NCBI RefSeq assembly: GCF_001427785.1 | Contig: NZ_LMHM01000018.1 | Location: 184,360 to 248,359, forward strand | Source of the DNA: Lysobacter sp. Root690 | GTDB lineage: Bacteria > Pseudomonadota > Gammaproteobacteria > Xanthomonadales > Xanthomonadaceae | Length of the DNA: 64,000 nucleotides | Direction: 5' to 3' | Position numbers and translations under genes: made by a program | In this document: one piece after another, positions 10,070-29,889 of the stretch | How the letters are laid out: every line of letters starts with the position of its first letter | How positions within the stretch are numbered: position 1 is the first letter of the stretch | The notes under the pieces: generated by a model | What the model saw: only the letters and a program-made list of their open reading frames with translations | What the model was told of the DNA's origin: nothing | Database searches by the model: none

Positions 10070-11218
10070 ATGAAACTGTTGATGAAAGGCATGGTGTTCC
10101 TCGTCGTTTCCCTGTTCGCCGGCGGCGCCTGGGCGCAGAACTGGCAACTGGTATGGAGCGACGAGTTCAACGGATCGATCGGACCGGACTGGGTGTTCGA
10201 AACCGGCAACGGCAGCAGCGGCTGGGGCAACAACGAGCTGGAGTACTACCGGCGCGAGAACGCCGGCATCGAGAACAACGCCCTGGCCATCACCGCCCGG
10301 CGCGAGGATTTCGGCGGTTTCCGTTACACCTCCGCGCGCATGAAGACCCAGGGCATCCGCAACTTCAAGTACGGCAAGATCGAAGCGCGGATGAAGCTGC
10401 CCTCGTTCATGGGCGCGTGGCCGGCGTTCTGGGCGCTGGGCGCCAATCTGCCCCAGGTCGGTTGGCCCGACTCGGGCGAGATCGACATCATGGAACACGT
10501 CAACAACGAGGACCGCACCTACGGCACCATCCACTGGCGCGACCACAACGGCAACTACGCTCAGTACGGCGGTAATACCCTGCTCAGCGTCACCGACTGG
10601 CATGTGTACTCGGTGGAGTGGGACGCGAATGCGATCCGCTGGTACGTCGATGGCAACAAGTTCCACGAAGCCAGCATCCAGAACAGCGTCAACGGCACCG
10701 AGGAGTTCCATCGCGACTTCTTTCTGCTGCTGAACTTCGCCATCGGCGGCAACTGGCCGGGCTTCAACGTCGACGAAAGCAAGTTGCCGGCGAAGATGCT
10801 CGTCGACTACGTTCGCGTGTATAACGCCGGCGGCAGCAGCCCGTGGTCGCGCACGCTGGAGGCCGAAAGTTTCGCCGCGCAGAGCGGCGTGCAAGTGGAA
10901 GCCTGCTCGGAAGGCGGCTCCAACGTCGGCTGGATCGACAGCGGCGACTGGCTGTCGTACAGCAACGTCAACTTCCCCAGCAGCGGCAGCTATCGGGTGG
11001 AGTACCGCGTGTCGAGCCCCGGCGGCGGCGCGTTGTCGCTCGACCTCAACGCAGGCGGCACGGTGCTGGGCCAGGTGCAGGTGCCGGCGACCGGCGGCTG
11101 GCAGAACTGGCAGACCGTCGCGCATACGGTCAACGTCAACGCGGGCACGTACAACCTCGGCGTATACGCGCAGCAAGGTGGATGGAACATCAACTGGATT
11201 CGTATCACCCGGTTGTGA
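10070..11218 (+). CDS. Secreted GH16 beta-1,3-glucanase (laminarinase) with C-terminal CBM6
   Basis: This 382-residue secreted enzyme should cut beta-1,3-glucans such as fungal or oomycete cell walls or laminarin. A signal peptide (MKLLMKGMVFLVVSLFAGGAW) ends near WAQ. The GH16 domain covers about residues 22-250, with the signature GEIDIMEH giving nucleophile Glu137, Asp139 and acid/base Glu142. After a short GGSS linker a CBM6-type carbohydrate module fills residues ~262-382 (LEAESFAAQSG... to NINWIRITRL). AGGAG precedes the ATG. The architecture matches beta-1,3-glucanases reported from antifungal Lysobacter strains. It is monocistronic, with a terminator about 130 bases downstream. Confidence 0.92.
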   Translation: MKLLMKGMVFLVVSLFAGGAWAQNWQLVWSDEFNGSIGPDWVFETGNGSSGWGNNELEYYRRENAGIENNALAITARREDFGGFRYTSARMKTQGIRNFKYGKIEARMKLPSFMGAWPAFWALGANLPQVGWPDSGEIDIMEHVNNEDRTYGTIHWRDHNGNYAQYGGNTLLSVTDWHVYSVEWDANAIRWYVDGNKFHEASIQNSVNGTEEFHRDFFLLLNFAIGGNWPGFNVDESKLPAKMLVDYVRVYNAGGSSPWSRTLEAESFAAQSGVQVEACSEGGSNVGWIDSGDWLSYSNVNFPSSGSYRVEYRVSSPGGGALSLDLNAGGTVLGQVQVPATGGWQNWQTVAHTVNVNAGTYNLGVYAQQGGWNINWIRITRL

Positions 11219-13527: not shown

Positions 13528-16500
13528 TCAGAACTTGTAGCCGACCGTGAAGCTGTAGCTGCGGCCGAAGATGCTGGCGTAGTCGCTGGAATCGCCAAGG
13601 AAGCTGTTGGGATCGTAGAACGGCGTGCGATCGAACAGGTTCTTGACGGTGACGCCGACGTTGAGCTTCTCGGTCGGACGCCAGGTCAGGCTCAGGTTGG
13701 CCGTCCACCACGCCGGCACGCCGTCGCAATGAGACTTGGCCACCGGCAGGTAACCGGCGGTGCAGGTCTGCGGGTTGTTGTCCTCCGCGTCGATGCGTTC
13801 CCAGGCCCACTTGGTGGTGCCGACGTAGTTCACGAAGAAGCTGGTGCTCACCTGGCGGTAGTTCCAGTCGGCGTTGATCGTCGCGCGCAGACGCGGATTG
13901 CCGTAATAGCCGACGGTGTTGCCGTAGTACCAGCCGTTTTCGTCGTCCAGATACGCCTGGTTGCGGCGCGCGATGGTCGCGGCCAGACCGATGTTGAGGC
14001 TGCCCCACTCGCCCAGCGAGAAGCGGCTGCGCGCGTCGACGTCGAAGCCGTCGATCAGGGTGCGGCCCTTGTTCTTGTACTGGCCGACGACGCTGGCGAC
14101 ATTGCCGACGCTGTAGCCCGGCAGCGCGCCCGGACAGCTCACGCCGCTGGCCGGATCAGCGCACATCGCCGCCAGCGCGGCCACCGCGGCGCGGTCGGAC
14201 TCGGTGATCGGCGAACGGGTCGACGACAGAATGTCTTCGTCCTTGCTGTAGTCCGGCGCGGCGATTTCGTTGCGGCGATAGATGAACCAATAATCGGCCG
14301 ACACCGACAACCAGTCGAGCGGCTCGAACACGAAGCCCAGGGTGCCGATCTTGGCCTTCTCCGGCTTGAGATCCTGGTTGGGCTGGGTCATGCGCGCCAC
14401 GGTGCGGCTGCAGTCGGCGTTGAGCAGCGAATTGCCCAGGTCGACGTCGCCACTGCGGCGCGATTGACGCAGCAGGTTGGCGATGGCGTTGGTTTCATCG
14501 CAGCGGACTTCGTCGCGGTAGCCGCCGAGCTGGGCGAACACGCCGCCGGTGCCGGACTCAGCCAGGCTCGGCGCGCGGAAGCCTTCCGAGTAGGTGCCGC
14601 GCAACAGCAGTTGCGGCAGCACCTGGTACTTCAGGCCGATCTTCGGCGCGACGTTGGCGCTGAAGTTCGGGTACTTGTCCACGCGCAGCGCGGCGTCGAG
14701 TTCGAGCTTGTCGGTCAGCGGCGCGACCGCCTCGGCGAACACGGCATAGGTGTTGCGCTTGCCGTCGAACCACGAGCCGCCCTGCTGGGTGATCAGGCCG
14801 TTGGCGGCGTCCGCGTTGCCCGGGGTGTAGAAGGTCTCGCGGCTGACGTTGAAGCCGAACGCGGCGCGCACTTCACCGGCCGGCAGCTTGAACAGCGGGC
14901 CTTCGATCTTGCCGTCGAGGGTGTGCAGGCGGGTCCACGACTGGATGTCGAAGGTCGGGAACGCGGCGCGGATCAGCGCCGCGTTGGCCTCGTTGATCTG
15001 ACCGAACTTGTACGCTGGGTGGTCGGAGATGATCACCCGGCCCGTGCCCGGGTCGGTGGTATATGGGCCGAACGCTTTCTCGAAGCCTTCCAGATTGACG
15101 TTGATGGTCTGGTAGGTGGTCGAGTGGGTGCCTGCGGTGGCGAACGCGGTTTCCCAGTTCCAGTCGCCGATGGCGCCGCGCAGGCCGCCGAGCGCGCGAT
15201 AACTCTTGTCGGTGTTGCGCTGACCGAAGTAGTTCGCGCCCGCGTCCTGCAACAGGTACTGCAGGCCCACTACCCCGCCCATCATCGCCTTGAGCTGCGG
15301 GCTGGCGTGGTTGTACTCATTGTTCGGGCCGAGGAAGGGATACAGGAACTGATTGACCGAGGTGCCGGTGTTGCGCGAGAACCAACTGGTCGGATTGCCG
15401 GTGGTGGTGCCGTAGGCGCGCGGCGTGCCGCCGTTGGCGCGCAGGTCGATGTCGGTGTAGGTCGCTTCGGCGAAGGCCTCGGTGCTGTCGCCGATCAGGA
15501 AGTGCGCGTTGACGTAGGCGGTGTTGCGTTCGGACTTGGCGCCGGCGTCGATCTCGTTGTTCATCCAGGTCTGCCAGATGCAACGCGGGCCCGCGGCTTC
15601 GGTGGTGAGCACGTTGTTGCAGCCCGGCGCGGGCTCCTGCACGCGCCGGCCGGTGACCGGATCGAAGGCGAAGTAGCTGCCGGGATTGAACACGCCCGGC
15701 TTGCTGCCGGTGCCCAGGCGCAGGTTGGTGAGGTAGTTCGGGTTGTTGAGGTAGTACTGGTTCGGACGCTTGTCGTAGAAATCGCTCAACGGGATCGCGT
15801 CGCGGCGGTACAGATTGACCGCGGCGTAGACGTTGTAGCGGTCTTCGTCGAGGTCGCCGAAACCGGCGGTGATGCTGGCCTGGTGCTCGCCGTAGGAATC
15901 GATGCGCGAGGACATGTCGGTGGTCAGGTTGACCTCCGCACCCTGGTAATTGCGCTTGGTGATCACGTTGATCACGCCGGCCACCGCGTCGGTGCCGTAC
16001 ACCGCCGAGGCGCCGTCGGTCAGCACCTCCATGCGTTCGATCGCTGCGGCCGGAATGGCGTCGATGTTGACGAACTGGGTCTGGAACCCGGCCGGCGCGC
16101 CGTAATACGACAGACGCCGACCGTTCAACAGCACCAGCGTGCCCTGCGCGCCGAGGCCGCGCAGATTGGCCTGCGAGGCGCCGTCGGAACCGGTGAACAG
16201 CGAGCGCGAATCCTGCTGCGCTGGCCGCGCCGCAGGCAGGTTGTCGAGCACCTGCAACAGGGTGCGCGCGCCCATGTTCTCGATGTCCTGCTTGCTGACG
16301 ATCTGCACCGGCGATGCGGTTTCCACGTCGGTGCGGCGGATGTTGGAACCGGTGACTTCGACCCGCGACAGCTCGGTGGTCTTGTCCTTGCTGTCCGTGC
16401 CGGCCGCGCCATCCTGTGCGGCAGCGAGGGACATGTGACCCAGCAGCGCGACGGCCAGGGCCAGCGACAACGGGGTGGCGGGGATGCGGTTGGCGCGTTG

Positions 16501-16530
16501 ACGGCGCGTACGGCGGCTTGCGGGCAACAT
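13528..16530 (-). CDS. TonB-dependent outer-membrane receptor of the GalNAc locus
   Basis: The 1000-residue product has a long signal peptide (LSLALAVALLGHMSLAAAQ), a plug domain opening with LSRVEVTGSNIRRTDVETASPVQIV and QVLDNLPAARPAQ, the plug signature IERMEVLTDGASAVYGTDAVAGVINVITK, and a large beta-barrel ending in FTVGYKF with the usual terminal Phe. AGGAG precedes the ATG at 16530. It lies 191 bases downstream of the GH31 gene on the same strand, so the two are probably co-transcribed. By context it should import GalNAc or GalNAc-containing oligosaccharides, like AgaO of the Shewanella GalNAc pathway; the substrate is inferred only. Confidence 0.9.
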   Translation of the reverse strand: MLPASRRTRRQRANRIPATPLSLALAVALLGHMSLAAAQDGAAGTDSKDKTTELSRVEVTGSNIRRTDVETASPVQIVSKQDIENMGARTLLQVLDNLPAARPAQQDSRSLFTGSDGASQANLRGLGAQGTLVLLNGRRLSYYGAPAGFQTQFVNIDAIPAAAIERMEVLTDGASAVYGTDAVAGVINVITKRNYQGAEVNLTTDMSSRIDSYGEHQASITAGFGDLDEDRYNVYAAVNLYRRDAIPLSDFYDKRPNQYYLNNPNYLTNLRLGTGSKPGVFNPGSYFAFDPVTGRRVQEPAPGCNNVLTTEAAGPRCIWQTWMNNEIDAGAKSERNTAYVNAHFLIGDSTEAFAEATYTDIDLRANGGTPRAYGTTTGNPTSWFSRNTGTSVNQFLYPFLGPNNEYNHASPQLKAMMGGVVGLQYLLQDAGANYFGQRNTDKSYRALGGLRGAIGDWNWETAFATAGTHSTTYQTINVNLEGFEKAFGPYTTDPGTGRVIISDHPAYKFGQINEANAALIRAAFPTFDIQSWTRLHTLDGKIEGPLFKLPAGEVRAAFGFNVSRETFYTPGNADAANGLITQQGGSWFDGKRNTYAVFAEAVAPLTDKLELDAALRVDKYPNFSANVAPKIGLKYQVLPQLLLRGTYSEGFRAPSLAESGTGGVFAQLGGYRDEVRCDETNAIANLLRQSRRSGDVDLGNSLLNADCSRTVARMTQPNQDLKPEKAKIGTLGFVFEPLDWLSVSADYWFIYRRNEIAAPDYSKDEDILSSTRSPITESDRAAVAALAAMCADPASGVSCPGALPGYSVGNVASVVGQYKNKGRTLIDGFDVDARSRFSLGEWGSLNIGLAATIARRNQAYLDDENGWYYGNTVGYYGNPRLRATINADWNYRQVSTSFFVNYVGTTKWAWERIDAEDNNPQTCTAGYLPVAKSHCDGVPAWWTANLSLTWRPTEKLNVGVTVKNLFDRTPFYDPNSFLGDSSDYASIFGRSYSFTVGYKF

Positions 16531-16721
16531 CGGAACTCTCCTGGCAGGACTGCGGCGCGGATGGCGAACGAAGGGCAACAGCGATCCCGGGCCGCGGCCG
16601 GATGGCCGCAGTCGGTTTGGGCGGGGGAGGAGCGGTGTTACGGGTTCGGTTAGTGGTTCGGTGTTAGGGATTCGATGTGGGTGGTTCGGTGTCGCGTGTT
16701 GCGGTTATGGATTCGGATGGT

Positions 16722-19700
16722 TCATGGCGCGACGATGCTGGCGCTGTCGCCCTCCTGGCCGATCAGCACGGCGTTGGCCCAGTTCGCGCAGACCTGCGCG
16801 GGTTGGTTGCCCTGTGCGCCTAAGGTGCGCAGGCTCAAGGACGACAGACCGCGGATGTCGAGTTCCGGCTTGACCACGCCGGGCGCCTTCACCAAGCCAC
16901 TGTCGTAAAGCAGGCGCTCGTCGCCCCAGACCTGGAACTGCAGACCGCCGGCGGCGCGACAGGCATCGTCGATGCCGAGATCGGCGCGCAATACACGCCA
17001 CTGACCTTGCAGGCGCAGATCGATACGGCTGGCCGGGCCGACGCCCAGGCCGCGGCGGAACAGCAGACCGTTCATGCGCAGCGCATCGTCGCCGCGAAAC
17101 GCACGATCGGCATGCACCTGGCTCTTCAACGTGGCCGGTAACGGCAACTCGGACAGGTAACGCTGCTGCGCCGGACGCTCGGGCTCCTGGTGTTCGAGGA
17201 TATGGAAACTCGACAATGCGATCGGGCCGACATCGCGCGGCTGCAGCGCATCGACCGCGCGCGCCGCATTGGCTTGCGCCGCGGTGACCATCGGATCGGT
17301 CGCCGACGCGCCATCACCCTCGGGGTTCTGCACGCTGAGCACGCGGAAGCGCAACAACCGGCCGGCGCGCGCGGGGAACTCGATTCGCTGCGGTTCCTGC
17401 TTGAGCTGCAGATGACCACGCGCGATCGGTTCGCCCCATTCGCCGTTGCTGTCGCCCAGGTACACCTCGTAGTCGCGGACCTGACCGTGCTTCCAGTTCT
17501 TGTCGTTGCGCGGCGCGATTTCGATGCCGTCGATCAACTTGCGTTCGCCGAATCCGATCGACCATTCGTGCGCGCCGGTACGCACGGCCTGATTACGCAC
17601 GCTGCGGAACCACGTCGCGGGATCGTCGTCGAACGCATTTTCCAGCGCATGCCCGGGTTCTTCGGCCGGACGATTGACCACCAGCAGACTGTCCGCCGGC
17701 AACGCGCGGCCGAGCGCCGGCGCGGCCGGGAACGCATCGTCGCCGGGCGCCGCGGCGATGGCGATATCGAGCGCGAACTGCAGCGGCTTGCGAATATCGA
17801 CCGCGGCGGTACGCACATGCACGCTGCCCTTGCGTTCGGCTGGATCGAAATACCAACCTTCGCTCGCCGCCTGCAACGCGGCGGCATCAGCCAGCTTCGG
17901 CAGCGCGCGGCCGTCGACCGACACCGCGCGCGGCGCCTGCCGGCTGAGCACGCGCAAGCCGTAGCGACGTTGCGGCAGCTGGCCCTGGTACTGACCCTGC
18001 ACCGCGTCGATCCGCACACTGACCGGGCCACTGCCCTGCGCCGGCGCGTTCATGCGCACTTGCTGAGTGCTTGACTCGCCCTGCTCGTAACGACGCGTGT
18101 TGCCATCGTCTTCGTACATCGTGTACTGCGAATCGCCCTGCGGGTATAGGTCGAAAGTGATTTCGTCGAGCGGCTTTTCGCCGTCGAACAGCATCGCCGG
18201 ATGCATCGGCACGATCGCGCCGGCGCGGACGAACAACGGCAGCGTGGCGAGGTCAACCTGGCGGTCGAGTTCGCGACCGGCGGCGCCGGCCTGCACGCTG
18301 CGCCCGTCCCAGTAATCGATCCAGCGGCCGGCCGGCAGATGGATACCGCGCCGCCAGCCACGGCTCGCGGCCTGACTGCGGTACACCGGCGCCACCAGCA
18401 GATCGCGACCGAGCAGGAACTGATACTTGTAGGCCTCGTCGCGCGCATGCGGATCTTGCGGGTAATCCCACATCAACCCGCGCACCGGCGGCGCGCCGGT
18501 CTGCGCGGCGTCGTGGGTGAGGCCGTACATGTACGGCGTCAGCCGCATCTTCAATTTCAGATAATCGCGATTGATGCTGCGGTACGGCTCGTCGAACCAC
18601 CACGGATGCTTGCGCGCGTTCGACGACCAACCCGACATGCCCATGAGTACCGGCGTGAACGCCTTCCACTGCAGATCGCGGGTATAGGTTTCGGCGCTGC
18701 CACCGAAGATCGCATCGACGTCGCCGGTGGCGTAAGCCATGCCCGACAGGCCCGAACCGATCAGGGTCGGCACATGCCAGCGGATATAATCCCAGCTCGC
18801 GCTCTGATCGCCGGTCCAGGCCACTGCATACCGCTGGATGCCGGCCCAGCCCATCACTGTCCACAGGAACGGGCGCGAATCGGAGTTGTGCAGGATGCCG
18901 TTGAACGCCGATTGATTGGCGTCCATTGCGAACTGGTAGCCCTTGCCGGTCCAGGCCACGTCGAGCTTCTGCACCCGGCTGCCGGCGGTGCCGACTTCCC
19001 AGGCGATCTTGTCGACGCCGTTCTCGGTCCACAGGCCAGTGCGGAAGCCGTATTTCGCCAGCCCCTTCACCGTCTCGGGCAATTGTTTGTAACCGCAGCC
19101 GTAACCGTCGTTGGGCAGGATCCAGCCGCCGGGCATGTCGTGTTCGCGGTACTGGCGCGCGACGCTCTCGACTACATCGATCGTGGTGCCGGTCGGACCG
19201 TCGCGCCAGCCTTCGGGCACGGTGCCGGGTTTCTTGCCGTTGTCGCCGTCGTTGTAGCAATCGGCGTCGCCGTACGACAGCGCCCAGCGCGGCAACAGGC
19301 CGGGACGGCCAGTCAGTTGTGTGTAACGTTCGAGCAGGCGCGGCAGTTCGCCGACGAAGTAATAGGCGTCGAAGCGATCTTCGCGATGCAACAACGTGGA
19401 TTGATCGGGCTGGCGCAGATCGTAACTGCCGTCGCTCCAGGTGTTGCGCAACATGCCCCAGCCGCGCGAGCTCAGCAGCATCGGCGCCGGGCTCGGGCGA
19501 TCGCCTTCTTCCCAACCGCCGGAATACGACACGTCCAGTTCGCGGCCTTTGAATTGGTAACGGCCGTTCTGCTGGCCTCCGCCGTAGAACGCTTCGTCGG
19601 CCTGCGACGACAGCACTTGCACGCTCTGGGTCGCATCGAGATCCAGCGGTTGCAGTTCCTGCCACAGCGAGGTGCGGCGCTCGCCGTCGATACGTTCCAG

Positions 19701-20099
19701 CCGCAGCTTCAACGGTTGCCGCTGCACGTGCAGCACCAGCGCGCCGGTGCGCACGCGCACTTCGGCGGCGTCTTCCTCGAGCGTGGCGTCAACCTTGGCC
19801 GCCGTTTGCGGCAGCGGCAGCACGATCGGCGCGGCCTTGTCGCCGGCCGGGGTCAACTTGCCGCTACGTCCGGCCTGCACCCGCACGATGTCGTCGGCCA
19901 GCACCTCGATGCGCAGCACGCTGCCGGTGTCGGTGCTCAGTTCCCAGCCCGGCGTCGCGCCGGCATCGGCGCGGACCGCGTGCAGATTGCCGACCGGCTC
20001 GGCCGCAACCGGCAGCGCCGACAGCAACAGCGCGGCCGGGATCGTGATCGAGAGCATCGTTCTCGACAAACTCGCGATCGGCGGACACGGACGACGCAT
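16722..20099 (-). CDS. Secreted GH31 glycosidase with F5/8C and NPCBM modules, probable alpha-N-acetylgalactosaminidase
   Basis: The product is 1125 residues. A signal peptide (MLSITIPAALLLSALPVAA) follows a short basic start. The GH31 catalytic domain covers about 150-700. The nucleophile is most likely Asp393 in QFAMDANQSAF, with acid/base Asp431 in AWTGDQSASW; this differs from the WNDMNEP region of ordinary alpha-glucosidases. An F5/8-type C domain lies around 760-890 (DDDPATWFRS) and an NPCBM domain around 970-1110. It faces agaS, the kinase, agaZ, agaR and agaA across a shared control region, so release of alpha-linked GalNAc is the likeliest activity, as in the GH31 subfamily known to do this. 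Alpha-galactosidase is the main alternative. GTG at 20111 is an alternative start. Confidence 0.85.
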   Translation of the reverse strand: MRRPCPPIASLSRTMLSITIPAALLLSALPVAAEPVGNLHAVRADAGATPGWELSTDTGSVLRIEVLADDIVRVQAGRSGKLTPAGDKAAPIVLPLPQTAAKVDATLEEDAAEVRVRTGALVLHVQRQPLKLRLERIDGERRTSLWQELQPLDLDATQSVQVLSSQADEAFYGGGQQNGRYQFKGRELDVSYSGGWEEGDRPSPAPMLLSSRGWGMLRNTWSDGSYDLRQPDQSTLLHREDRFDAYYFVGELPRLLERYTQLTGRPGLLPRWALSYGDADCYNDGDNGKKPGTVPEGWRDGPTGTTIDVVESVARQYREHDMPGGWILPNDGYGCGYKQLPETVKGLAKYGFRTGLWTENGVDKIAWEVGTAGSRVQKLDVAWTGKGYQFAMDANQSAFNGILHNSDSRPFLWTVMGWAGIQRYAVAWTGDQSASWDYIRWHVPTLIGSGLSGMAYATGDVDAIFGGSAETYTRDLQWKAFTPVLMGMSGWSSNARKHPWWFDEPYRSINRDYLKLKMRLTPYMYGLTHDAAQTGAPPVRGLMWDYPQDPHARDEAYKYQFLLGRDLLVAPVYRSQAASRGWRRGIHLPAGRWIDYWDGRSVQAGAAGRELDRQVDLATLPLFVRAGAIVPMHPAMLFDGEKPLDEITFDLYPQGDSQYTMYEDDGNTRRYEQGESSTQQVRMNAPAQGSGPVSVRIDAVQGQYQGQLPQRRYGLRVLSRQAPRAVSVDGRALPKLADAAALQAASEGWYFDPAERKGSVHVRTAAVDIRKPLQFALDIAIAAAPGDDAFPAAPALGRALPADSLLVVNRPAEEPGHALENAFDDDPATWFRSVRNQAVRTGAHEWSIGFGERKLIDGIEIAPRNDKNWKHGQVRDYEVYLGDSNGEWGEPIARGHLQLKQEPQRIEFPARAGRLLRFRVLSVQNPEGDGASATDPMVTAAQANAARAVDALQPRDVGPIALSSFHILEHQEPERPAQQRYLSELPLPATLKSQVHADRAFRGDDALRMNGLLFRRGLGVGPASRIDLRLQGQWRVLRADLGIDDACRAAGGLQFQVWGDERLLYDSGLVKAPGVVKPELDIRGLSSLSLRTLGAQGNQPAQVCANWANAVLIGQEGDSASIVAP

Positions 20100-20178
20100 G
20101 CGGAATTTCACCTTGCCCCCAAGGAGCCCGCTCGGCGGGCATACGAAACCTGTTGCGGCCGACTCTAGGGCAGTGATT

Positions 20179-20396
20179 CGAAAGCTGTCAATGAATTGAA
20201 AGAAAAAAGGAAGAATTTATCGGGCAAAACGAAAGATTGTGCAATGCAATACTTTCTAAACATGGCAAAAATCCCTGTTAAGCACGCAACGAAAGCTTAT
20301 CCAAGTCGATCTTTCGTTTTTTCCGAGCCGGTGCTGAGAATAAGCTCGTTCGGCCAATTTCTTTTGTTTTACTTTCGATAATTGACATTCCGAAAG
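20179..20396. promoter_or_regulatory. Array of CGAAAG boxes, probable AgaR operators
   Basis: The AT-rich divergent region between the GH31 gene and agaS carries the hexamer CGAAAG at 20179, 20230, 20290 and 20391 and its complement CTTTCG at 20311 and 20372. Two inverted pairs stand out, 20290-20316 and 20372-20396, each spanning 25-27 bases. Reduced copies (GAAAG at 20198, CTTTC at 20252) add to the array. DeoR-family AgaR proteins are known to bind TTTCG-rich repeats, and the regulator gene lies at the end of the facing operon. The region of 335 bases between the two start codons has no gene. Confidence 0.65.
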
Positions 20397-20434
20397 AAAA
20401 CGCAGATCGTCACCGCGCTCAACAGGGATTCTCC

Positions 20435-21589
20435 ATGGACCTCACCCCGCTCCCCGACTCGACCGCCTGGCAGCGCCTGGGCGGAGCCGATACCGCCGCC
20501 GAAATCGCCCAGCAACCGGCTTTATGGGACGAAATGGCCGGCGATCTGGCGCAGGTGCAAGAACGCGTGCAAGCCTTTCTCGGCGACTGCCTCGACGACC
20601 CGCGCCAGCGCGTGCTGTTCACCGGCGCCGGCAGTTCGGGCTTCATCGCCGATCTCGTCGCCGACAGCATCAACGCGCAATGGCCGGCCGAAGTGCGCGC
20701 GCTGCACACCACCAACCTGCTGACCCATCCGGCGCTGTACCTGCAGCGCGACCGCCCGACCCTGCTGGTGTCGTTCGGCCGCAGCGGCTCCAGCCCGGAA
20801 AGCGTGGCCGCGGTCGAACTGGTGCGCGCGCAGGTCGAGCACGCGCGCTTTCTCGACATCACCTGCAATCCCGACGGCGAACTCGCGCGCCGCGGCGCCG
20901 GCCGCGACGACACCTGCACCGTGCTGATGCCGGCGGCGAGTTGCGACCGCGCCTTCGCCATGACCAGCAGCCTGAGCTGCATGCTGTTGACCGCGCTCAG
21001 CGTGTTCGACCGCGCGCCGTGGCCGCGGCGGATCGAACGCCTGCAACAACTGGCCGCGCTCGCGCGCGAAGGCCTCGCGCAGTGGGACGCACCGGTCGCG
21101 GCCTTGGCCCAGCGGCCGTTCAACCGTGTGATCTATCTGGCCAGCGGCCCACTGGAAGCCTTGGCGCGCGAAGCCGCGCTGAAGGTGCTCGAACTCACCG
21201 CCGGCCGCGTTCTGGCGTTGGCCAATACGCCGCTGGGGTTTCGTCACGGGCCCAAGTCCACGCTCGACGATCAAACCTTGGTGGTGGTGATGCGCAGCAA
21301 CCACGCGCTCGCACGCCGTTACGAACACGATCTGCTCGACGAGCTGCGCCGCGACGGCGTGGCCGGACAGGTGCTGTCGATCGGCCCGCACGCCGATATC
21401 GGTGGCGACGACGACCACAGCCTGCACGTGCCAGCGCTGGAGGACACGTGGCTGGCGCCGGTGTGGCTGACCTTCGCGCAGATGTACGCGCTGCAACGTT
21501 CGGCCGCGCTCGGCCTGACTCCCGACAATCCCTTCCCGGACGGCACCGTCAACCGGGTGGTCAAGGGCGTCACCATCCACCATGGCTGA
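20435..21589 (+). CDS. agaS: AgaS, galactosamine-6-phosphate deaminase/isomerase (SIS domains)
   Basis: AgaS turns galactosamine-6-phosphate into tagatose-6-phosphate plus ammonia. The 384-residue product has two SIS sugar-isomerase domains; the first shows LFTGAGSSGFIADLVA and SFGRSGSSPES, the phosphosugar-binding Ser/Thr loops, and the second shows YLASGPLEALAREAALKVLELT and the family hallmark FRHGPKS. It is the first gene of the plus-strand aga operon, directly behind the CGAAAG array, and overlaps the next gene by 8 bases. A GlmS/FrlB-like isomerase is the alternative, but the neighbours favour AgaS. Confidence 0.9.
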   Translation: MDLTPLPDSTAWQRLGGADTAAEIAQQPALWDEMAGDLAQVQERVQAFLGDCLDDPRQRVLFTGAGSSGFIADLVADSINAQWPAEVRALHTTNLLTHPALYLQRDRPTLLVSFGRSGSSPESVAAVELVRAQVEHARFLDITCNPDGELARRGAGRDDTCTVLMPAASCDRAFAMTSSLSCMLLTALSVFDRAPWPRRIERLQQLAALAREGLAQWDAPVAALAQRPFNRVIYLASGPLEALAREAALKVLELTAGRVLALANTPLGFRHGPKSTLDDQTLVVVMRSNHALARRYEHDLLDELRRDGVAGQVLSIGPHADIGGDDDHSLHVPALEDTWLAPVWLTFAQMYALQRSAALGLTPDNPFPDGTVNRVVKGVTIHHG

Positions 21590-22523
21590 CGCCGCCGCTC
21601 CCGCGATCCGCTACGGCATCGACATCGGCGGCACCAAGATCGAATTGGTCGCCTGCGATGCCGCGCTGGAAGTGCGCCATCGTCGGCGCATCGCCACGCC
21701 GCAGGGCAAATACCCGGCGTTCCTGACAGCGCTCGAAGCGCTGGTCGCCGCGGCCGACGCCGAACTCGGACTCGCCGATACCGCGATCGGCATCGCCCTG
21801 CCCGGCGTGCGCGACCCGCGCAGCGGCCGTCAGCTCAGCGCCAACGTGCCGGCCTTGACCGGCCGCACCGTCGCCGCCGACTTGCAGTCGCGACTGCAAC
21901 GACCGCTGCACTTCGGCAACGATCTGCAATGCTTCGCGCTGTCCGAAGCGCATGGCGGCGCTGCCGAAGGGTATCCGAGCATGTTCGGCGCGATCCTCGG
22001 CACCGGCGCGGGCGGCGGTTATTGCCTGCACGGTCGATTGGTGACCGGCTTCAACGGCCTGGCCGGCGAATGGGGCCACTGGAGCGTGCCGGGGCAACTG
22101 CTGCAACGCTATGCGCTGCCGGTGCTGGACTGCGCCTGCGGTTTGCGCGGCTGCGTCGAGCGCTATGTCTCGGGCAGCGGCCTGGTCGCGCTGCACCGTC
22201 ATTTCGGCGGCGAAGCGGACGACGCCGCCGCCGTGCTCGCCCTGGCCGACGCGGGCGATGTGCGCGCGCGCGAGGTGATGGCGATCCATCTGGATCTGCT
22301 CGGCCACAGTCTGGCCAAGCTGGTGCTGGTGCTGGATCCGCACGTGATCGTGCTCGGCGGCGGTCTGTCGCAACACGCACCGCTGTACGGCGTGTTGCCG
22401 GCGGCGGTCGCCGCGCATCTGTTCGATGGCGTGCAGGTACCGCCGATCGTGCCGCCGCGCTTCGGCGGCGCCGGCGGCGCGCGCGGCGCCGCGTTGCTGG
22501 CGTGGGCGCCGGCCTTGTCCTGA
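21582..22523 (+). CDS. ROK family sugar kinase, probable GalNAc kinase
   Basis: The 313-residue product starts with the phosphate loop YGIDIGGTKIELVA and has the ROK signatures LGTGAGGGYCLHGRLV, EWGHW and the zinc motif CACGLRGCVERYVSG. Family members such as NagK phosphorylate GlcNAc or glucose; here the position between agaS and agaZ points to phosphorylation of N-acetylgalactosamine at O6. This would replace PTS uptake, for which no genes are present. It overlaps agaS by 8 bases, which suggests translational coupling. Confidence 0.85.
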   Translation: MADAAAPAIRYGIDIGGTKIELVACDAALEVRHRRRIATPQGKYPAFLTALEALVAAADAELGLADTAIGIALPGVRDPRSGRQLSANVPALTGRTVAADLQSRLQRPLHFGNDLQCFALSEAHGGAAEGYPSMFGAILGTGAGGGYCLHGRLVTGFNGLAGEWGHWSVPGQLLQRYALPVLDCACGLRGCVERYVSGSGLVALHRHFGGEADDAAAVLALADAGDVRAREVMAIHLDLLGHSLAKLVLVLDPHVIVLGGGLSQHAPLYGVLPAAVAAHLFDGVQVPPIVPPRFGGAGGARGAALLAWAPALS

Positions 22524-22571
22524 GTTTCCCGGCTCGTACCGAGTCGTCCTGAATCGCGTTGGAGTTTCGCC

Positions 22572-23900
22572 ATGTCGTCCGTGCAATCGCTGATCGCCTC
22601 CCACCGCCAGGGCCGCAACGTCGGCCTGTACAGCGTGTGCTGCAGCAACGAACTGGTGCTGCGCGCCGCGATGGAGGTGGCCCGCCGTCATGACACTTTG
22701 CTGCTGATCGAAGCGACCTCCAACCAGGTCGACCAGTTCGGCGGCTACACCGGCATGACCCCGCCGCAGTACCGCGACTACGTGCTGACCTTGGCGCGCG
22801 AAGAAAACTTCCCGGCCGATCGGCTGGTGCTCGGCGGCGATCACCTCGGCCCCAACGCCTGGCAGAAGCAGCCGGCCGAAGAAGCCATGGCGCATGCGCG
22901 GGTGCTGATCGAAGCTTATGTGGCCGCCGGTTTCCACAAGATCCATCTGGATTGCAGCATGTCCTGCGCCGACGATCCCACCCCGCTGCCCGACGCGACC
23001 GTCGCCGCGCGTTCGGCCGAACTGGCGCGCATCGCCGAACGCACCGCCGCCGCGCACGGCCTGCCGCCGCCGGTGTACGTGATCGGCACCGAAGTGCCGA
23101 TCCCCGGCGGCGAAGCCTCGCTGGCCGGCGGCCTCGCGGTGACCACGCCGCAAGCCGCCGAACAGACCCTGACGATCCACCGCGACGCCTTCGCCGCGCC
23201 CGACCTGGCGTCGGCGTGGGAACGCGTGATCGCGATGGTGGTGCAGCCGGGCGTCGACTTCGACCACAGCAGCGTGCACGACTACGATCCGCTCGCGGCG
23301 CGGGCCCTGGCCGATTTTCTCGAACGCCAGCCGCGCATCGTGTTCGAAGCGCACTCCACCGATTACCAGCGCGAGGACGGCCTGCACGCGCTGGTGCGCG
23401 ATCACTTCGCCATCCTCAAGGTCGGCCCGGCCGCGACCTTCGCCTATCGCGAGGCGCTGTTCGCGCTGGCCGCGATCGAAGCCGAACTGCTGCCGCCGGA
23501 GCAACGCTCGAACCTGCCGCGGGTGCTCGAACAATGCATGCTCGACAACCCGCGCCACTGGCAGCAGCACTACCACGGCGACGAGCACGAACTGCATCTG
23601 CTGCGCCTGTACGCGCTCAGCGACCGCTGCCGCTACTACTGGGGCGAACCGGCCCTGGTCGCCGCGGTGCAGCGCCTGTTCGACAATCTGCGCGCGCATG
23701 CGCCGCCGCTGTTCCTGCTGAGCCAGCACCTGCCCGAGCAATACCGCGCGGTGCGCGCCGGCACCCTGGCCAACACACCCGAGGCGCTGGTGCGTCATCG
23801 CATCGGCCTGTGCCTGGACGAATACGCCCGCGCCTGCTCGGCGAACACGGCCGGTGAGCGCGGTGCCGGTGAACGCGCCGCCGCCGCGGCGAACGGCTAA
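22572..23900 (+). CDS. agaZ: AgaZ/KbaZ/GatZ family tagatose-1,6-bisphosphate aldolase protein
   Basis: The 442-residue product is a full-length COG4573 member: SHRQGRNVGLYSVCCSNELV at the start, LIEATSNQVDQFGGYTGMTP, LGGDHLGPNAWQ, VIGTEVPIPGGE, and KVGPAATFAYREALFALAAIE. In enterobacteria the family was described as the non-catalytic partner of KbaY/GatY. No KbaY homologue is in the window, so here it may work alone, as proposed for pathways with only AgaZ. A short run of GERGAGERAAAAANG at the C-terminus is a low-complexity tail. It is the third gene of the operon. Confidence 0.9.
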   Translation: MSSVQSLIASHRQGRNVGLYSVCCSNELVLRAAMEVARRHDTLLLIEATSNQVDQFGGYTGMTPPQYRDYVLTLAREENFPADRLVLGGDHLGPNAWQKQPAEEAMAHARVLIEAYVAAGFHKIHLDCSMSCADDPTPLPDATVAARSAELARIAERTAAAHGLPPPVYVIGTEVPIPGGEASLAGGLAVTTPQAAEQTLTIHRDAFAAPDLASAWERVIAMVVQPGVDFDHSSVHDYDPLAARALADFLERQPRIVFEAHSTDYQREDGLHALVRDHFAILKVGPAATFAYREALFALAAIEAELLPPEQRSNLPRVLEQCMLDNPRHWQQHYHGDEHELHLLRLYALSDRCRYYWGEPALVAAVQRLFDNLRAHAPPLFLLSQHLPEQYRAVRAGTLANTPEALVRHRIGLCLDEYARACSANTAGERGAGERAAAAANG

Positions 23901-23927
23901 TCTTCGACCTTCAGCGCTTCGACTTTC

Positions 23928-24725
23928 ATGGCGGACCCACCGATGGCCATTCGCAACACCCGCGCCCGCCGGCAACAGATCCTGCAATGCCTGATCGAAC
24001 TCGGCTCGGTGCAGGTGGCCGAGCTGGTCGAGCGCTTCGGCGTGTCGGCGGTGACCATCCGCGCCGACCTGAGCCATATCGAATCGCAGGGCCTGGCCAC
24101 CCGCACCCACGGCGGCGCCGCGCTGGTGCGCACGCCGCCGCAGGAACAGGACATCCACGAGAAGGACGCGCTGAACCTGCCGCTGAAAGAGCGCATCGGC
24201 GCGCGCGCCGCGCAACTGGTGCAGGCCGGCGACAACATCATCATCGACTCGGGTTCCACCACCATGACCCTGGCACGCCATCTGCGCGGCCATCGCGACG
24301 TCACGGTGATGACCAACGGCCTCAACATCGCCTGGGAACTCGCCAACGCGCCCGGCGTCGACGTGCTGCTCAGCGGCGGCGTGCTGCGCAAGCAATCGCT
24401 GTCGCTGCAGGGCAGCCAGGCCGAGGCCAGCCTCAATGCCTACAGCTTCGACACCTTGTTTCTCGGCGTGGACGGCCTGGACCTGCAGTTCGGCCTGACC
24501 ACCCACGACGAGGCCGAGGCGCGCCTCAACCATCGCATGGTCGAACACGCGCGCCGAATCGTGGTGCTGACCGACGCATCGAAATTCGGCCGGGTCAGCC
24601 TGCACCGCATCGCCCGCCTCGATCAGATCCACGCCATCATCACCGACGCCGGCATCGACGAGCGCTATCGCGAAGGCCTGCAGCAACTGGGCATCGAAGT
24701 GATCATCGCCGAGGCGACGCCGTGA
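23928..24725 (+). CDS. agaR: DeoR family transcriptional repressor, AgaR-like
   Basis: The 265-residue product has an N-terminal DeoR winged helix (RRQQILQCLIELGSVQVAEL, then GVSAVTIRADLSHIESQGL and THGGA) and a C-terminal sugar-phosphate sensing domain (IIIDSGSTTMTLARHL, TNGLNIAWELA, FLGVDGLD, LTDASKFGRV). It most likely represses both arms of the locus through the CGAAAG array until a galactosamine-6-phosphate type inducer appears. The start could also be the ATG at 23943. Its stop overlaps the GTG start of the next gene by 4 bases (GTGA). Confidence 0.88.
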   Translation: MADPPMAIRNTRARRQQILQCLIELGSVQVAELVERFGVSAVTIRADLSHIESQGLATRTHGGAALVRTPPQEQDIHEKDALNLPLKERIGARAAQLVQAGDNIIIDSGSTTMTLARHLRGHRDVTVMTNGLNIAWELANAPGVDVLLSGGVLRKQSLSLQGSQAEASLNAYSFDTLFLGVDGLDLQFGLTTHDEAEARLNHRMVEHARRIVVLTDASKFGRVSLHRIARLDQIHAIITDAGIDERYREGLQQLGIEVIIAEATP

Positions 24726-25846
24726 CCGAATTGCATCACCTGCAAGGCCGGATCCTGACGTCAGAGGGTTGGCGCGTCGGCCGCATCGGCTTCGACCGCC
24801 AGATCCGCACCATCGAAGAGCGCGCGCTCGAAGCGCGCGCGTTCGAAAGCGGCGGCGACGAATTCATCATCCTGCCCGGCTTCATCGACCTGCACGTACA
24901 CGGCGCCGCCGGCGTCGACCTGATGCAGGGCGGCGACGCCGCGCGCACCGTCGCGCGCGCGCACGTGCGTTACGGCACCACCGCCCTGCTCGGCACCACC
25001 ATGACCGCGGCGGAACCCGATATCGTGCACGCGCTGCGCGGCCTCGCCACCGCCATCGCCGAACCCGATCCAAATGCCGCGCGCGTGCTCGGCGTGCATC
25101 TGGAAGGACCGTTCATCAGCCCGCAGCGTCTCGGCGCGCAACCGCCGCTGACGGTGGAAGCCACCCTGGAATCGGTGCAACGCCTGCATGCGATGGCGCC
25201 GATCAAGGTGTTGACCTTGGCGCCGGAGATCGGCTCGCACACCGAGTTGATTCCGCAATTGAGCGCTATGGGCATCCGCGTCCAGATCGGCCACAGCGCC
25301 GGCAGTTACGAAGACGGCGTCGCCGCGCTGCGCGCCGGCGCGGTCGGCTTCACCCATCTGTTCAACGGCATGACCGGCGTCGACCACTACAAACCCGGCA
25401 TCGCCGCGGCCGCGCTGGCCCATGCCGAATACGCCGAGCTGATTCCCGATCTGCAGCATGTGCATCCCGGCGCGATCCGCCTTGCCGTGCGCGCCATTCC
25501 GCGCCTGTACGCGGTCACCGACGCGACCGCCGCGACCGGCATGCCCGACGGCGAATACGCGCTGGGTTCGCAGCGCGTGCACAAATGCCTCGGCTGCGTG
25601 CGCCTGGCCAGCGGTTCGCTGGCCGGCAGCGCGCTGACCATGGATCAGGCGCTGCGCAATCTGGTCGAGGTCGGCCTGGATCTCGCCGACGCCGCGCATC
25701 GCGTCTCCACCTTCCCGGCCGATTACCTGGGCCTGTCCGACCGCGGCCGCATCGCGCCCGGCGCCTGCGCCGATTTCGTGGTGTTGGACGCGCAGTTGCG
25801 CATCGTCGAGGTATATGTCGCCGGGCGCGCGATCGCATTGTCCTGA
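24722..25846 (+). CDS. agaA: N-acetylgalactosamine-6-phosphate deacetylase (NagA/AgaA family)
   Basis: The enzyme removes the acetyl group from GalNAc-6-phosphate so that AgaS can act. The 374-residue amidohydrolase has the metal motif IDLHVHGAAG (His58, His60), GVHLEGPFISP, IGHSAGSYEDGV, FTHLFNGMTG with a substrate His, and the catalytic Asp in VTDATAATGMPDG. The start is GTG at 24722 inside the agaR stop. It ends the aga operon. NagA specificity for GlcNAc-6-phosphate cannot be excluded from sequence, but the neighbours are all of the GalNAc type. A decayed partial copy lies downstream at 26951-27070. Confidence 0.88.
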   Translation: MTELHHLQGRILTSEGWRVGRIGFDRQIRTIEERALEARAFESGGDEFIILPGFIDLHVHGAAGVDLMQGGDAARTVARAHVRYGTTALLGTTMTAAEPDIVHALRGLATAIAEPDPNAARVLGVHLEGPFISPQRLGAQPPLTVEATLESVQRLHAMAPIKVLTLAPEIGSHTELIPQLSAMGIRVQIGHSAGSYEDGVAALRAGAVGFTHLFNGMTGVDHYKPGIAAAALAHAEYAELIPDLQHVHPGAIRLAVRAIPRLYAVTDATAATGMPDGEYALGSQRVHKCLGCVRLASGSLAGSALTMDQALRNLVEVGLDLADAAHRVSTFPADYLGLSDRGRIAPGACADFVVLDAQLRIVEVYVAGRAIALS

Positions 25847-27161: not shown

Positions 27162-28769
27162 CTAATTAACCACCCGCATCCATTGCTGCGCCGTCATGCT
27201 TATCTTTCCGGCGCCCATTGACGCGCGCAAGGCGCCGAGCTCATCGACCTGATGCAGCGTCATCGGATACGCAGGCACGCCATTGCGCCAGACGAACGGA
27301 ACCTGCGCCGCCTGAGCCGGACCGAGCGTGCTTCCGGCCGCGCCGCTGTCTCCTTCCCAACGGGCCCACACGACGCCGCGATCGAGGAAGGTCGCCTGCT
27401 GCGACGACACCGGCATGTACTGGGTATCGCTCGCAAACAGCACATGGCGAACGCCGAAGGCCCGGATCGCGCCGGTGTAACGCGAATCGTCGGGATCGGT
27501 CTGATTGTTCCGCAGCGGGGTGAACACACCCCAGAACAGGCTGCGCTCGACCTGGACCGCGCCGCCTTCGGTCGACACCGAGCCATTCAACACCACATCG
27601 AACTTGTAGGTCGGCGAGCTGCCCTCGAGTTTGGAACGCAGCGCCGGATTGGCCTGAACGACAGCGTCGCGGGTGGCCTTCATGATCCGCGCATTGGAGC
27701 TGTCGACGTACAGGTTGTACGCATGCACGTCTCCGCCGCGCAAACGCGGCATGCGGTCTTGCAGGTCGCGATAGTGGTTGTGATGCAGGGTCACCGTATA
27801 CGACGAAATCCCTTCGAGATCGTTGGAGCCGATCAGGTGCCCCTTCTTCTGCGGCAGCGAGATGTCGATGATCTGCTGTTTGGTGAAGAAACCGCGCAGG
27901 AAGTCGTACATCGCATTGGCCGATCGATTGGCTTCGAGGTAATCGAACTGGCGTGCTACAAAGCTGCCCGGCCCACTGGCCGGAGGAACGGTTTCGATCC
28001 ACGACACGGTGATGTTGTTCGCGCCCTTCTTGATGTCGAGCACACCGTCGTAGGCTTTAGTGAAACTGCAATGGTCGATCCAGATGCCCGAGGTCACGCC
28101 GCCGCCGTCGCCGAGGGTGACGAAATCCCAATCGTTGCTGTCGTAATCGCCGCGCGTCCCCTCGTCCCATTCCCACAACTCGTCGAAGCGCAGATTGCGC
28201 AACACCAGATTGGTTCCGCTTTTGATGTTCAGCTCGACATGCCGCAGGGTCGATCCGTTCTTGGAATAGATCGTCAATCCGTTGAAGTTCGTCACATCGA
28301 GCAGGGACACGCCGCTGGCGATCAACGAGGGATGCTTCTTGGGTGCCTTGTTCTGGCGCAGCAGCCCATCGGCGCGGGCCGCGTCGTCGACTTCGTTCCA
28401 GCCCATGTCGAGATCGTTGGCGATCTCGATGACCTTGACCGGCGTGGCGCTCGACGTGCGCGCGGCGCGCAGCGCGGCGATGAAACCCGCCGGCGTGGTC
28501 ACGCGCCGGTACTTGGCGTCGGTTTCGGCGATATAGCCGCCGCCGGTGACGCTGGCCGCCGCATAGCCTTCGATGTTGTACATCGAAATACCCGCCGCCG
28601 CGGCCGGCATGAGGCTTGCGACAACGAATATCAGCGACGCAATCAAGCATCGGCCACTGATGAAGCCGCGGCCGCGCCGTTGCCTGGCACGGTGGCGCAA
28701 GCGTGACGAGGATGCTGGAACGACTGCGCGCGCGATCTGCAGCACACGACGACTGGCGACGGTTTGCAT
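27162..28769 (-). CDS. Secreted pectate lyase, PL1 family
   Basis: The product is 535 residues. An arginine-rich start is followed by a hydrophobic export segment (LIASLIFVVASLMPAAAA). The parallel beta-helix shows the PL1 signatures WIDHCSFTKAYDGVLDIKKG (calcium site) and HHNHYRDLQDRMPRLRGG, which carries the catalytic Arg. It cuts polygalacturonate by beta-elimination to unsaturated oligogalacturonides. The ATG at 28769 follows GGAG. It is the outermost gene of the pectin locus, 172 bases downstream of the PL3 gene on the same strand. Confidence 0.9.
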   Translation of the reverse strand: MQTVASRRVLQIARAVVPASSSRLRHRARQRRGRGFISGRCLIASLIFVVASLMPAAAAGISMYNIEGYAAASVTGGGYIAETDAKYRRVTTPAGFIAALRAARTSSATPVKVIEIANDLDMGWNEVDDAARADGLLRQNKAPKKHPSLIASGVSLLDVTNFNGLTIYSKNGSTLRHVELNIKSGTNLVLRNLRFDELWEWDEGTRGDYDSNDWDFVTLGDGGGVTSGIWIDHCSFTKAYDGVLDIKKGANNITVSWIETVPPASGPGSFVARQFDYLEANRSANAMYDFLRGFFTKQQIIDISLPQKKGHLIGSNDLEGISSYTVTLHHNHYRDLQDRMPRLRGGDVHAYNLYVDSSNARIMKATRDAVVQANPALRSKLEGSSPTYKFDVVLNGSVSTEGGAVQVERSLFWGVFTPLRNNQTDPDDSRYTGAIRAFGVRHVLFASDTQYMPVSSQQATFLDRGVVWARWEGDSGAAGSTLGPAQAAQVPFVWRNGVPAYPMTLHQVDELGALRASMGAGKISMTAQQWMRVVN

Positions 28770-28941
28770 GTGGACTCCAGTGACCGCGCGCGGCACGCGT
28801 GGTCGGATGGTTGATCTATGGATCGGGACAGCGGGCCGGCATGCCGTCGCGCTGTCCGGCGATGGCCTCCGAAAACGCCCGCGATGCCCGCGAGTCGGCG
28901 GCTGCGGACGACGGCATCGGCGCGGCGTTCGCGACGCGGCC

Positions 28942-29736
28942 TTACCTGATCGTGCAGGCCCCTGGAACCGGCGATATTTCACCGGGTTCGCCGCTGGTCA
29001 GCCCGAGATACTCGACGCATTTGCGCCCGGAGGTCGAAACGCTGGTAAGCACGGCCTTGTCGCCGGCCACGCCGTTGGCGTAGCGCGAGTTGATGCCGGC
29101 GATCGCGCCGGTCTCGGTGGCGACCACATTGCTGACCTGCACGGTGCGGCTGTACTGGGTCGAGCAATTGCCGCATGAGCGGTACAACTTTCCGGCTTTC
29201 TCGATCTCGAAGTATTCGATCTTCATCGTGCCCGGGCCGTTGTGCTGGAAGACCTTGTCCTTCGCCAGCCGCGCCCCGCCGCCCTGGATGAGAAACACGT
29301 CGGATGCCTTGTTGTTCTTGAAGGTCGCCGCGTCTTCGCCGACATCGTCCCAATAGACCTCCGACAGCGTGCAGGTGCCGTAGCAATGGATACCATCGCC
29401 GCCGCGGCCGCGATAATCGCGGTTGGTTCCGGATTTAGAACCGTCGCCGATCACCACGTTCCTGAGCACCGCGTTGTTCCTCAGGATGAAGGTCGGCTTC
29501 TGCTTTTCGGTCTGGTCGCCGGGATCGCCGACATAACGCACCGCGGTGCCGGCGGCGCAGTTGTTGCGCTGGGCCGCATCGTAGGTCTCGCCATCGACGG
29601 TGATGGTCTTGATAGCGCTGCCGCTGCCTATGTCGATGGTCTTGCACACGTTCGGAAGATCCAGCGCGAAGCAGGAAGGAGACACCAACAGCAGCGCCAG
29701 ATAGATGCAGTGCCGGAAGCTTTGTACTTGGTTCAT
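28942..29736 (-). CDS. Secreted pectate lyase, PL3 family
   Basis: The 264-residue product has a signal peptide (FRHCIYLALLLVSPSCFA) and the PL3 motif region DGIHCYGTCTLSEVYWDDVG followed by EDAATFKNN, which corresponds to the VGEDA core of the family, plus several cysteines (CYGTC, CGNC) able to form disulfides in the periplasm or outside. PL3 enzymes favour low-methylated pectate and need calcium. AGGAGAG precedes the ATG at 29736. It and the PL1 gene are divergent from the first LacI regulator gene. Confidence 0.88.
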   Translation of the reverse strand: MNQVQSFRHCIYLALLLVSPSCFALDLPNVCKTIDIGSGSAIKTITVDGETYDAAQRNNCAAGTAVRYVGDPGDQTEKQKPTFILRNNAVLRNVVIGDGSKSGTNRDYRGRGGDGIHCYGTCTLSEVYWDDVGEDAATFKNNKASDVFLIQGGGARLAKDKVFQHNGPGTMKIEYFEIEKAGKLYRSCGNCSTQYSRTVQVSNVVATETGAIAGINSRYANGVAGDKAVLTSVSTSGRKCVEYLGLTSGEPGEISPVPGACTIR

Positions 29737-29889
29737 GATCGAACTCTCCTTCAGCAGGTTGATTGGAATGTCATCCGTGCTGCATCGACGTCGTCGCATG
29801 GCTGCAGCGGGCGTCAGTTATAGGAAGCTCATACGGCGCAGCATGATGATGCGAGTCACAACGCCCGCATCGGATCGCTGTCCCGGCGA

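Follow-up and report, generated by a model that had tools for sequence, protein, structure and literature searches.

The question raised by one locus of Lysobacter sp. Root690 is how N-acetylgalactosamine (GalNAc) held in alpha linkage might be taken up, released and carried to fructose-6-phosphate by a cell in which no class II aldolase is found. The locus lies in a 64,000-nt stretch (the window; positions 184,360 to 248,359 of contig NZ_LMHM01000018.1, RefSeq assembly GCF_001427785.1), and joins a five-gene aga operon to a divergent arm encoding a GH31 glycosidase and a TonB-dependent receptor. That the two arms are regulated together and serve to take up and break down GalNAc held in alpha linkage, taken as a whole chain, seems to us quite probable. 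It is moderately probable that, across Lysobacteraceae and Burkholderiales, a GalNAc pathway free of both an aldolase and a second kinase is joined, by way of one divergent promoter under AgaR control, to the uptake of glycopeptides and the release of alpha-GalNAc from them. The features are as follows, with coordinates as positions in the window and profile models judged against the NCBIfam curated cut-offs.

13528..16578, minus strand: TonB-dependent receptor with plug and beta-barrel domains
16722..20111, minus strand: predicted GH31 alpha-N-acetylgalactosaminidase, GH31_18-like, with GH31, DUF5110, F5/8C and NPCBM domains and an N-terminal leader read by eye
20112..20434: regulatory region shared by the two divergent arms, carrying 8 CTTTC/GAAAG boxes (20180-20396) as putative AgaR operators
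20435..21589, plus strand: agaS, predicted galactosamine-6-phosphate deaminase/isomerase of the SIS family (TIGR02815; PDB 3odp, 3c3j)
21582..22523, plus strand: ROK kinase (PF00480), nearest to N-acetylglucosamine (GlcNAc) kinase, a candidate GalNAc-6-kinase in the role of AgaK
22572..23900, plus strand: agaZ, GatZ/KbaZ-like (TIGR02810; PDB 2fiq), putative D-tagatose-6-phosphate 4-epimerase
23928..24725, plus strand: agaR, DeoR-type repressor (NF040755)
24722..25846, plus strand: agaA, predicted GalNAc-6-phosphate deacetylase of the NagA/amidohydrolase family (TIGR00221)

The five aga-operon genes all run on the plus strand, away from the GH31 and receptor arm on the minus strand. The agaS and ROK genes overlap by 8 nt and agaR and agaA by 4 nt (GTGA; the agaA start at 24722 was read by eye at the junction), with gaps of 48 nt between ROK and agaZ and of 27 nt between agaZ and agaR, and the receptor gene follows the GH31 gene in the same direction after 143 nt, counting its first possible start. 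A first-pass annotation, made from the sequence alone, had described just such an operon with overlaps, facing a GH31 enzyme and a TonB receptor, and all of the genes were found at their positions; for the span it gave the locus, 16722..25846, the gene content stands, but the receptor sits outside it, at 13528-16578. AgaZ (TIGR02810, 606 bits) and AgaR (NF040755, 332.1 bits against 260) score above their cut-offs, and AgaA narrowly so against the NagA model TIGR00221 (228.6 against 225.65 bits). No phosphotransferase system (PTS) gene was seen in the locus, the only part of the genome considered for this; with the ROK kinase present, this agrees with the kinase-based entry without a PTS that had been proposed.

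Relatives were drawn from an order sample of 200 genomes, the window's own included, and from a scan of named genomes with a GH31 alignment, in which 80 of 241 relatives were examined; counts out of 80 refer to these. The window GH31 has as its closest PDB structures 6m76, 7f7r and 7f7q, all GH31 alpha-N-acetylgalactosaminidases, at 374-377 bits, the next GH31 reaching 167 bits. Its Asp pair, D384 and D435 (GTG start = 1), aligns to 6m76 and is invariant across all 94 relatives that could be aligned, 98 loci (18 + 80) having been tried and 4 giving no match each time; as several genomes occur in both sets (L029 and L069, for example), the 94 sequences are not independent. We take the counterparts of the pair in 6m76 to be D455 and D508, the nucleophile and the acid/base, and the source of that enzyme to be Enterococcus faecalis. 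The window enzyme resembles that of 6m76 in its score of 377 bits and its two aligned Asp residues, and differs in that its catalytic part is followed by F5/8C and NPCBM domains and in its linkage to an aga operon. The GH31_18 subfamily is reported to hold solely alpha-GalNAc activities so far (PMC13096917; see also PMC11790493), and several of its members act on peptide-linked GalNAc (PMC13096917, PMC11790493). Closeness to solved enzymes thus supports, at the level of sequence, the assignment as an alpha-N-acetylgalactosaminidase, and the earlier suggestion of a substrate with alpha-GalNAc gains from the distance between 377 and 167 bits.

As to where the bond is cut, the first-pass annotation had the substrate cleaved outside and then imported by the receptor. 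The N-terminus of the enzyme shows a Sec-like leader, and GH31_18 enzymes elsewhere have been placed in the periplasm, by prediction in Akkermansia (PMC11790493) and in a model for Bacteroides thetaiotaomicron (PMC11992087); because of these, cleavage is more likely periplasmic than extracellular, with uptake first and cutting second. Uptake and cleavage both stand as parts of the earlier scheme, and it is their order that is more likely reversed. Were the GH31 enzyme instead secreted to cut outside the cell, with the receptor importing free GalNAc or a short oligosaccharide, only the first two steps of the pathway set out below would change; the leader peptide and the F5/8C and NPCBM domains would fit such a route, as would type II secretion, which occurs in these bacteria. 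An outer-membrane receptor is, however, hardly necessary for a free monosaccharide. With this, and with the GH31_18 enzymes of two Gram-negatives periplasmic by prediction or model (PMC11790493, PMC11992087), we regard secretion as rather unlikely.

The next question is what becomes of tagatose-6-phosphate. A KbaY-type catalytic aldolase had been noted as missing from the window, and this extends to the genome: the class II aldolase family (PF01116) gave no match in its 6.3 Mb, in a search in which 11 of 14 control genomes were positive, which rules out a KbaY elsewhere in the genome, and with it the catalytic subunit (KbaY/GatY, PF01116) of a KbaYZ tagatose-bisphosphate aldolase. Within the order sample, PF01116 was over the cut-off in 38 of the 200 genomes and in none of 36 from the window's family (18 with AgaZ and 18 without), the 36 being taken from a kinship-ordered list and the PF08013 and PF01116 samples being taken as identical, their handles agreeing. 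Nineteen of the 200 genomes, the window's included, have PF08013, and of these, all carrying AgaZ, G053 alone has PF01116 over the cut-off and belongs to a different family, with G032 sub-threshold at 20.1 bits. With no class II aldolase in the cell, AgaZ here therefore has no KbaY to assist.

AgaZ matches PDB 2fiq at 419 bits. Active-site residues have been proposed for GatZ (C20, E44, D87, H88, E171, H257 and K279; PMC11907403) and, when these were transferred through the 2fiq alignment, all seven were found kept in the window AgaZ, as C23, E47, D90, H91, E174, H261 and K283, none of which varies among the 94 relatives that could be aligned. The same study reports that E. coli GatZ and KbaZ convert fructose-6-phosphate to tagatose-6-phosphate, that a gatZ mutant regained tagatose production from kbaZ co-expressed with hxpA but not from kbaY, gatY or fbaA, and that a Zn-dependent retro-aldol/aldol mechanism is proposed (PMC11907403). 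By analogy with these E. coli proteins, AgaZ is most likely a tagatose-6-phosphate 4-epimerase feeding fructose-6-phosphate, in which case neither a tagatose-6-phosphate kinase nor KbaY would be required. The earlier remark that AgaZ may act alone, if meant of an aldolase, is better taken for AgaZ working by itself as a tagatose-6-phosphate 4-epimerase.

A more classical route would make AgaZ a tagatose-6-phosphate kinase or an accessory subunit and leave cleavage to an unlinked class I aldolase, if that enzyme accepts tagatose-1,6-bisphosphate. A review reports that AgaZ has been put forward as the tagatose-6-phosphate kinase (PMC12118421), and a class I fructose-bisphosphate aldolase and PfkB-family kinases are present in the genome. 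These points are opposed by the proposed epimerase residues, kept throughout the aligned relatives, by a class II aldolase query that found no match within the stretches covered of the 80 loci, and by the finding that E. coli KbaZ is an epimerase in vivo (PMC11907403), and we consider the classical route improbable, though not negligible. The locus offers a case from nature in which a member of the disputed GatZ/KbaZ/AgaZ family seems to function with no class II aldolase in the cell, so that deletions made in a single strain could decide whether such proteins are chaperones, kinases or epimerases.

Which amino sugar the locus serves also had to be decided. A separate group of genes, for a GntR-type regulator, a NagB-II-like deaminase and NagA, lies at about 96.5-99.6 kb of contig C12 (G000; L148:6564-9560), the NagB-II-like protein scoring 342 bits, below the cut-off of 430. 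Because of this group, a role for the present locus in GlcNAc alone is disfavoured. One could still hold that the locus serves GlcNAc, from chitin or peptidoglycan, and that its GalNAc labels are misassigned: its ROK protein is nearest NagK, its AgaA passes the NagA model, and the genome showed no further kinase that could be recognised as NagK-like. Of four ROK matches there, one is the operon kinase, another has Mlc/NagC regulators as its best models, a third is in a glucokinase and the fourth (C1:743321) is weak at 25 bits; the operon kinase is the only NagK-like protein among the three placed, with the fourth left out. Yet AgaS, AgaZ and AgaR are of galactosamine/tagatose-pathway families, the GH31 is closest to alpha-N-acetylgalactosaminidases and the C12 group offers a separate GlcNAc set, albeit with a NagB-II-like member below its cut-off, so that the locus was rejected as the GlcNAc locus and a misassignment of this kind appears highly improbable. 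The sequence supports a GalNAc locus rather than a GlcNAc-only one, in keeping with the first-pass annotation, and the ROK kinase may serve GlcNAc as well as GalNAc. A BadF-type N-acetylhexosamine kinase was ruled out as an alternative, the genome search having returned no match.

Whether the two arms are controlled together can be judged from the 323-nt region between them. It holds 8 CTTTC/GAAAG boxes where 1.6 are expected, and none of 300 dinucleotide shuffles attained that count; three control words (TTTTC, CTTTG and CATTC) are unenriched there, and across the whole window CTTTC/GAAAG occurs at chance (76 against 79.6 expected). These boxes correspond to the AgaR motif, CTTTC being reportedly the proteobacterial AgaR consensus of Leyn et al. 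in 2012. The window and 14 relatives have 3-9 boxes per region against 0.8-1.9 expected, and all 15 exceed the shuffle mean, the weakest being L037 (3 against 0.8, reached by 3.3% of shuffles). In the GH31 scan, with the 5 of 80 loci lacking the core gene order excluded, 72 of 75 regions had a box count reached by at most 5 of 100 shuffles, and 498 boxes were found against 67.9 expected; this control is cruder, its shuffles being mononucleotide and its control words counted but unshuffled (CTTTG 93, CATTC 49, TTTTC 278). Four Duganella loci (L116 and L123-L125) have an agaS-GH31 gap of about 4.6 kb, and 3 of them lack box enrichment. A putative promoter with a box in its spacer can be read by eye for each arm of the window's locus.

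20162..20191, minus strand: putative GH31 promoter, TTGACA-18-TAGAGT, with a similar block in the regions of relatives
20382..20410, plus strand: putative agaS promoter, TTGACA-17-GATCGT, with a weak -10

TTGACA adjoining a box, as a loose pattern, recurs in 53 of the 75 regions, mostly in Lysobacteraceae with few Burkholderiales. The string TGACATTYCGAAAG has a single exact match in the genome, at the putative agaS promoter; a second AgaR operator of this type was discarded, the only other match, on C12, having 1 mismatch and no box cluster nearby. Because of the 8 boxes in the divergent promoter, the arms are probably co-regulated, and the shared array, present in the window and its relatives, lends good sequence support to the co-regulation on which the earlier proposal had been made to depend.

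The inner-membrane permease was the other part noted as absent from the window, and it is absent more widely. In most relatives agaA is directly followed by a gene for a sugar porter of the major facilitator superfamily (MFS; about 600 aa; PF00083, TIGR00879), among them 11 of the 14 main-type relatives of the order sample. This porter was not found in the window by homology search, nor at the loci of the three closest relatives (L063-L065), and a genome search with the relatives' permease gave no close homologue, the best of five matches reaching 34% over about 121 aa, which rules out its relocation elsewhere in the genome. Because it was found in none of the three places, the permease, a regular part of the system in the majority of relatives, has likely been lost or replaced in this lineage. 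Three glucose/galactose-type MFS matches occur in the genome, two of them over the cut-off, and one resembles NagP while scoring below the NagP cut-off; such proteins are possible substitutes, with candidates on C12 near 53 kb and on C1 near 789 kb. As a separate observation, neither agaA nor the permease was found within the stretch examined of the four Duganella loci L116, L123, L124 and L125.

Put together, the parts suggest the following pathway. The TonB receptor would take a glycopeptide or oligosaccharide bearing alpha-GalNAc into the periplasm, where the GH31 enzyme, as its family suggests, would free GalNAc. An MFS permease, operon-encoded in most relatives and presumably an unlinked substitute here, would carry the sugar over the inner membrane, and the ROK kinase would convert it to GalNAc-6-phosphate. 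From family membership, AgaA is expected to deacetylate this to galactosamine-6-phosphate and AgaS to turn the latter into tagatose-6-phosphate and ammonia, after which AgaZ would epimerise C4 to give fructose-6-phosphate. AgaR may repress both divergent transcripts through the CTTTC box array, with one box in each putative -35/-10 spacer.

Several points weigh against this pathway. AgaS and the ROK protein are under their cut-offs and are family-level calls (TIGR02815, 410.7 against 529.2 bits; best model a GlcNAc kinase, 273.9 against 380 bits). One recombinant GH31_18 member is reported to have cut para-nitrophenyl-alpha-GalNAc but to have left uncut every native substrate on which it was tried (PMC13096917), and the authors of the GatZ study inferred a low epimerase activity (PMC11907403). 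The seven AgaZ residues characterise the GatZ/KbaZ family at large and do not mark an epimerase subgroup; the absence of the class II aldolase is a family trait, shared by AgaZ-negative members, and not a loss tied to AgaZ; and the genome has a class I aldolase and eight PfkB-family matches, while nothing close to the permease of the relatives was found in it. The leader and promoters were called by eye. No enzyme or growth data for the locus were seen in the literature search, nor any title or abstract opening describing the locus or its pathway in Lysobacter or Stenotrophomonas. The closest genomic reconstruction is reportedly the 2012 work of Leyn and colleagues.

The locus shares parts with several known systems. 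The E. coli aga/kba cluster has AgaR, AgaS, AgaZ/KbaZ and AgaA, to which the window's proteins correspond by model matches; unlike it, the window locus has neither a PTS gene nor KbaY, and gains a kinase, a glycosidase and a receptor. The Agrobacterium tagatose-6-phosphate 4-epimerase, which we take to be a PF08013 protein, is used in hexitol catabolism and not for GalNAc. AgaZ falls in the same family as that enzyme (cited in PMC11907403). Closest in outline is the GalNAc pathway of Shewanella, which comprises AgaP, AgaK, AgaAII and AgaS with an outer-membrane protein (PMC2996990, PMC12118421) and has in common with the window a kinase-based PTS-free entry, a deacetylase, AgaS and an outer-membrane transporter; the window differs in its GH31 enzyme in a divergent operon, in a genome in which no class II aldolase was found, and in a cluster in which the inner-membrane permease (found in 62 of 80 relatives' loci) was not. 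The B. thetaiotaomicron polysaccharide utilization locus BT4240-50, together with BT3169-GH31, is likewise modelled with import, periplasmic alpha-GalNAc release, an MFS protein and a GalNAc kinase, but O1 is the reported site of action of its kinase, and tagatose does not figure in the main text (PMC11992087). The parts are thus known, namely the PTS-free route of Shewanella, GH31_18 and GatZ/KbaZ as epimerases; what appears new, judged by the titles and abstract openings surveyed, is that bacteria lacking KbaY combine them in a single divergent locus under the control of the box array.

How widely this arrangement occurs was followed in both sets of relatives. Among the 19 PF08013-positive genomes, 15 (the window's and 14 relatives) have GH31 facing agaS-ROK-agaZ-agaR, the other four (L032, L033, L036 and L042) being of different types; within the 15, L030 alone shows no receptor behind GH31, its contig ending there, and locus searches of L037 and L039 gave no agaA. 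As the 80 loci were collected through GH31, their counts tell how often GH31 accompanies the operon and not the reverse. The core order agaS-ROK-agaZ-agaR facing GH31 occurs in 75 of them, in 66 together with the receptor and in 59 with agaA and the permease as well, and the recurrence of the core order goes beyond what chance would give. Single genes are present as AgaS 77, AgaR 77, ROK 76, AgaZ 76, receptor 71, AgaA 65 and permease 62, where any match at E 1e-10 counts, distant ones included (L113, for example), and contig ends truncate a part of the loci. Identities are 92% for Lysobacter antibioticus and 65-69% for Burkholderiales (Duganella, Massilia, Janthinobacterium), with Stenotrophomonas, Pseudoxanthomonas, Luteimonas and Thermomonas as further genera. 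Bacteria such as Lysobacter, Stenotrophomonas, Massilia and Duganella would thereby have an O-glycopeptide-type alpha-N-acetylgalactosaminidase linked to an operon for GalNAc breakdown. A plasmid search gave 204 records, all below 60% identity, and hence no close plasmid copy.

Some of the loci stand apart. L098, titled Bacillus subtilis SK7B5, has locus identities like those of Stenotrophomonas rhizophila loci (80% for GH31, 79% for the permease) and is probably a mislabelled or contaminated assembly. L032, L036 and L042 hold a second GalNAc-like locus type, in which an agaZ 52% identical to that of the window lies beside agaS (44-46%). An AgaR of only about 42% identity accompanies them, as do a melibiase/GH31-like enzyme in L032 and L036, a BadF-type kinase in L042 and a TonB receptor, whose domains were seen in L032. 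At L033:7677-12417 the order is agaS, a PfkB kinase, agaZ and an MFS gene; this genome belongs to a different family and has a class II aldolase elsewhere. Within the window itself, a pair of neighbouring genes for pectate lyases, one of the Pectate_lyase_4 and one of the Pectate_lyase family, lies at 27162-29799, just past the aga operon, and a GH16 family enzyme with a CBM6 domain is encoded at 10070-11218.

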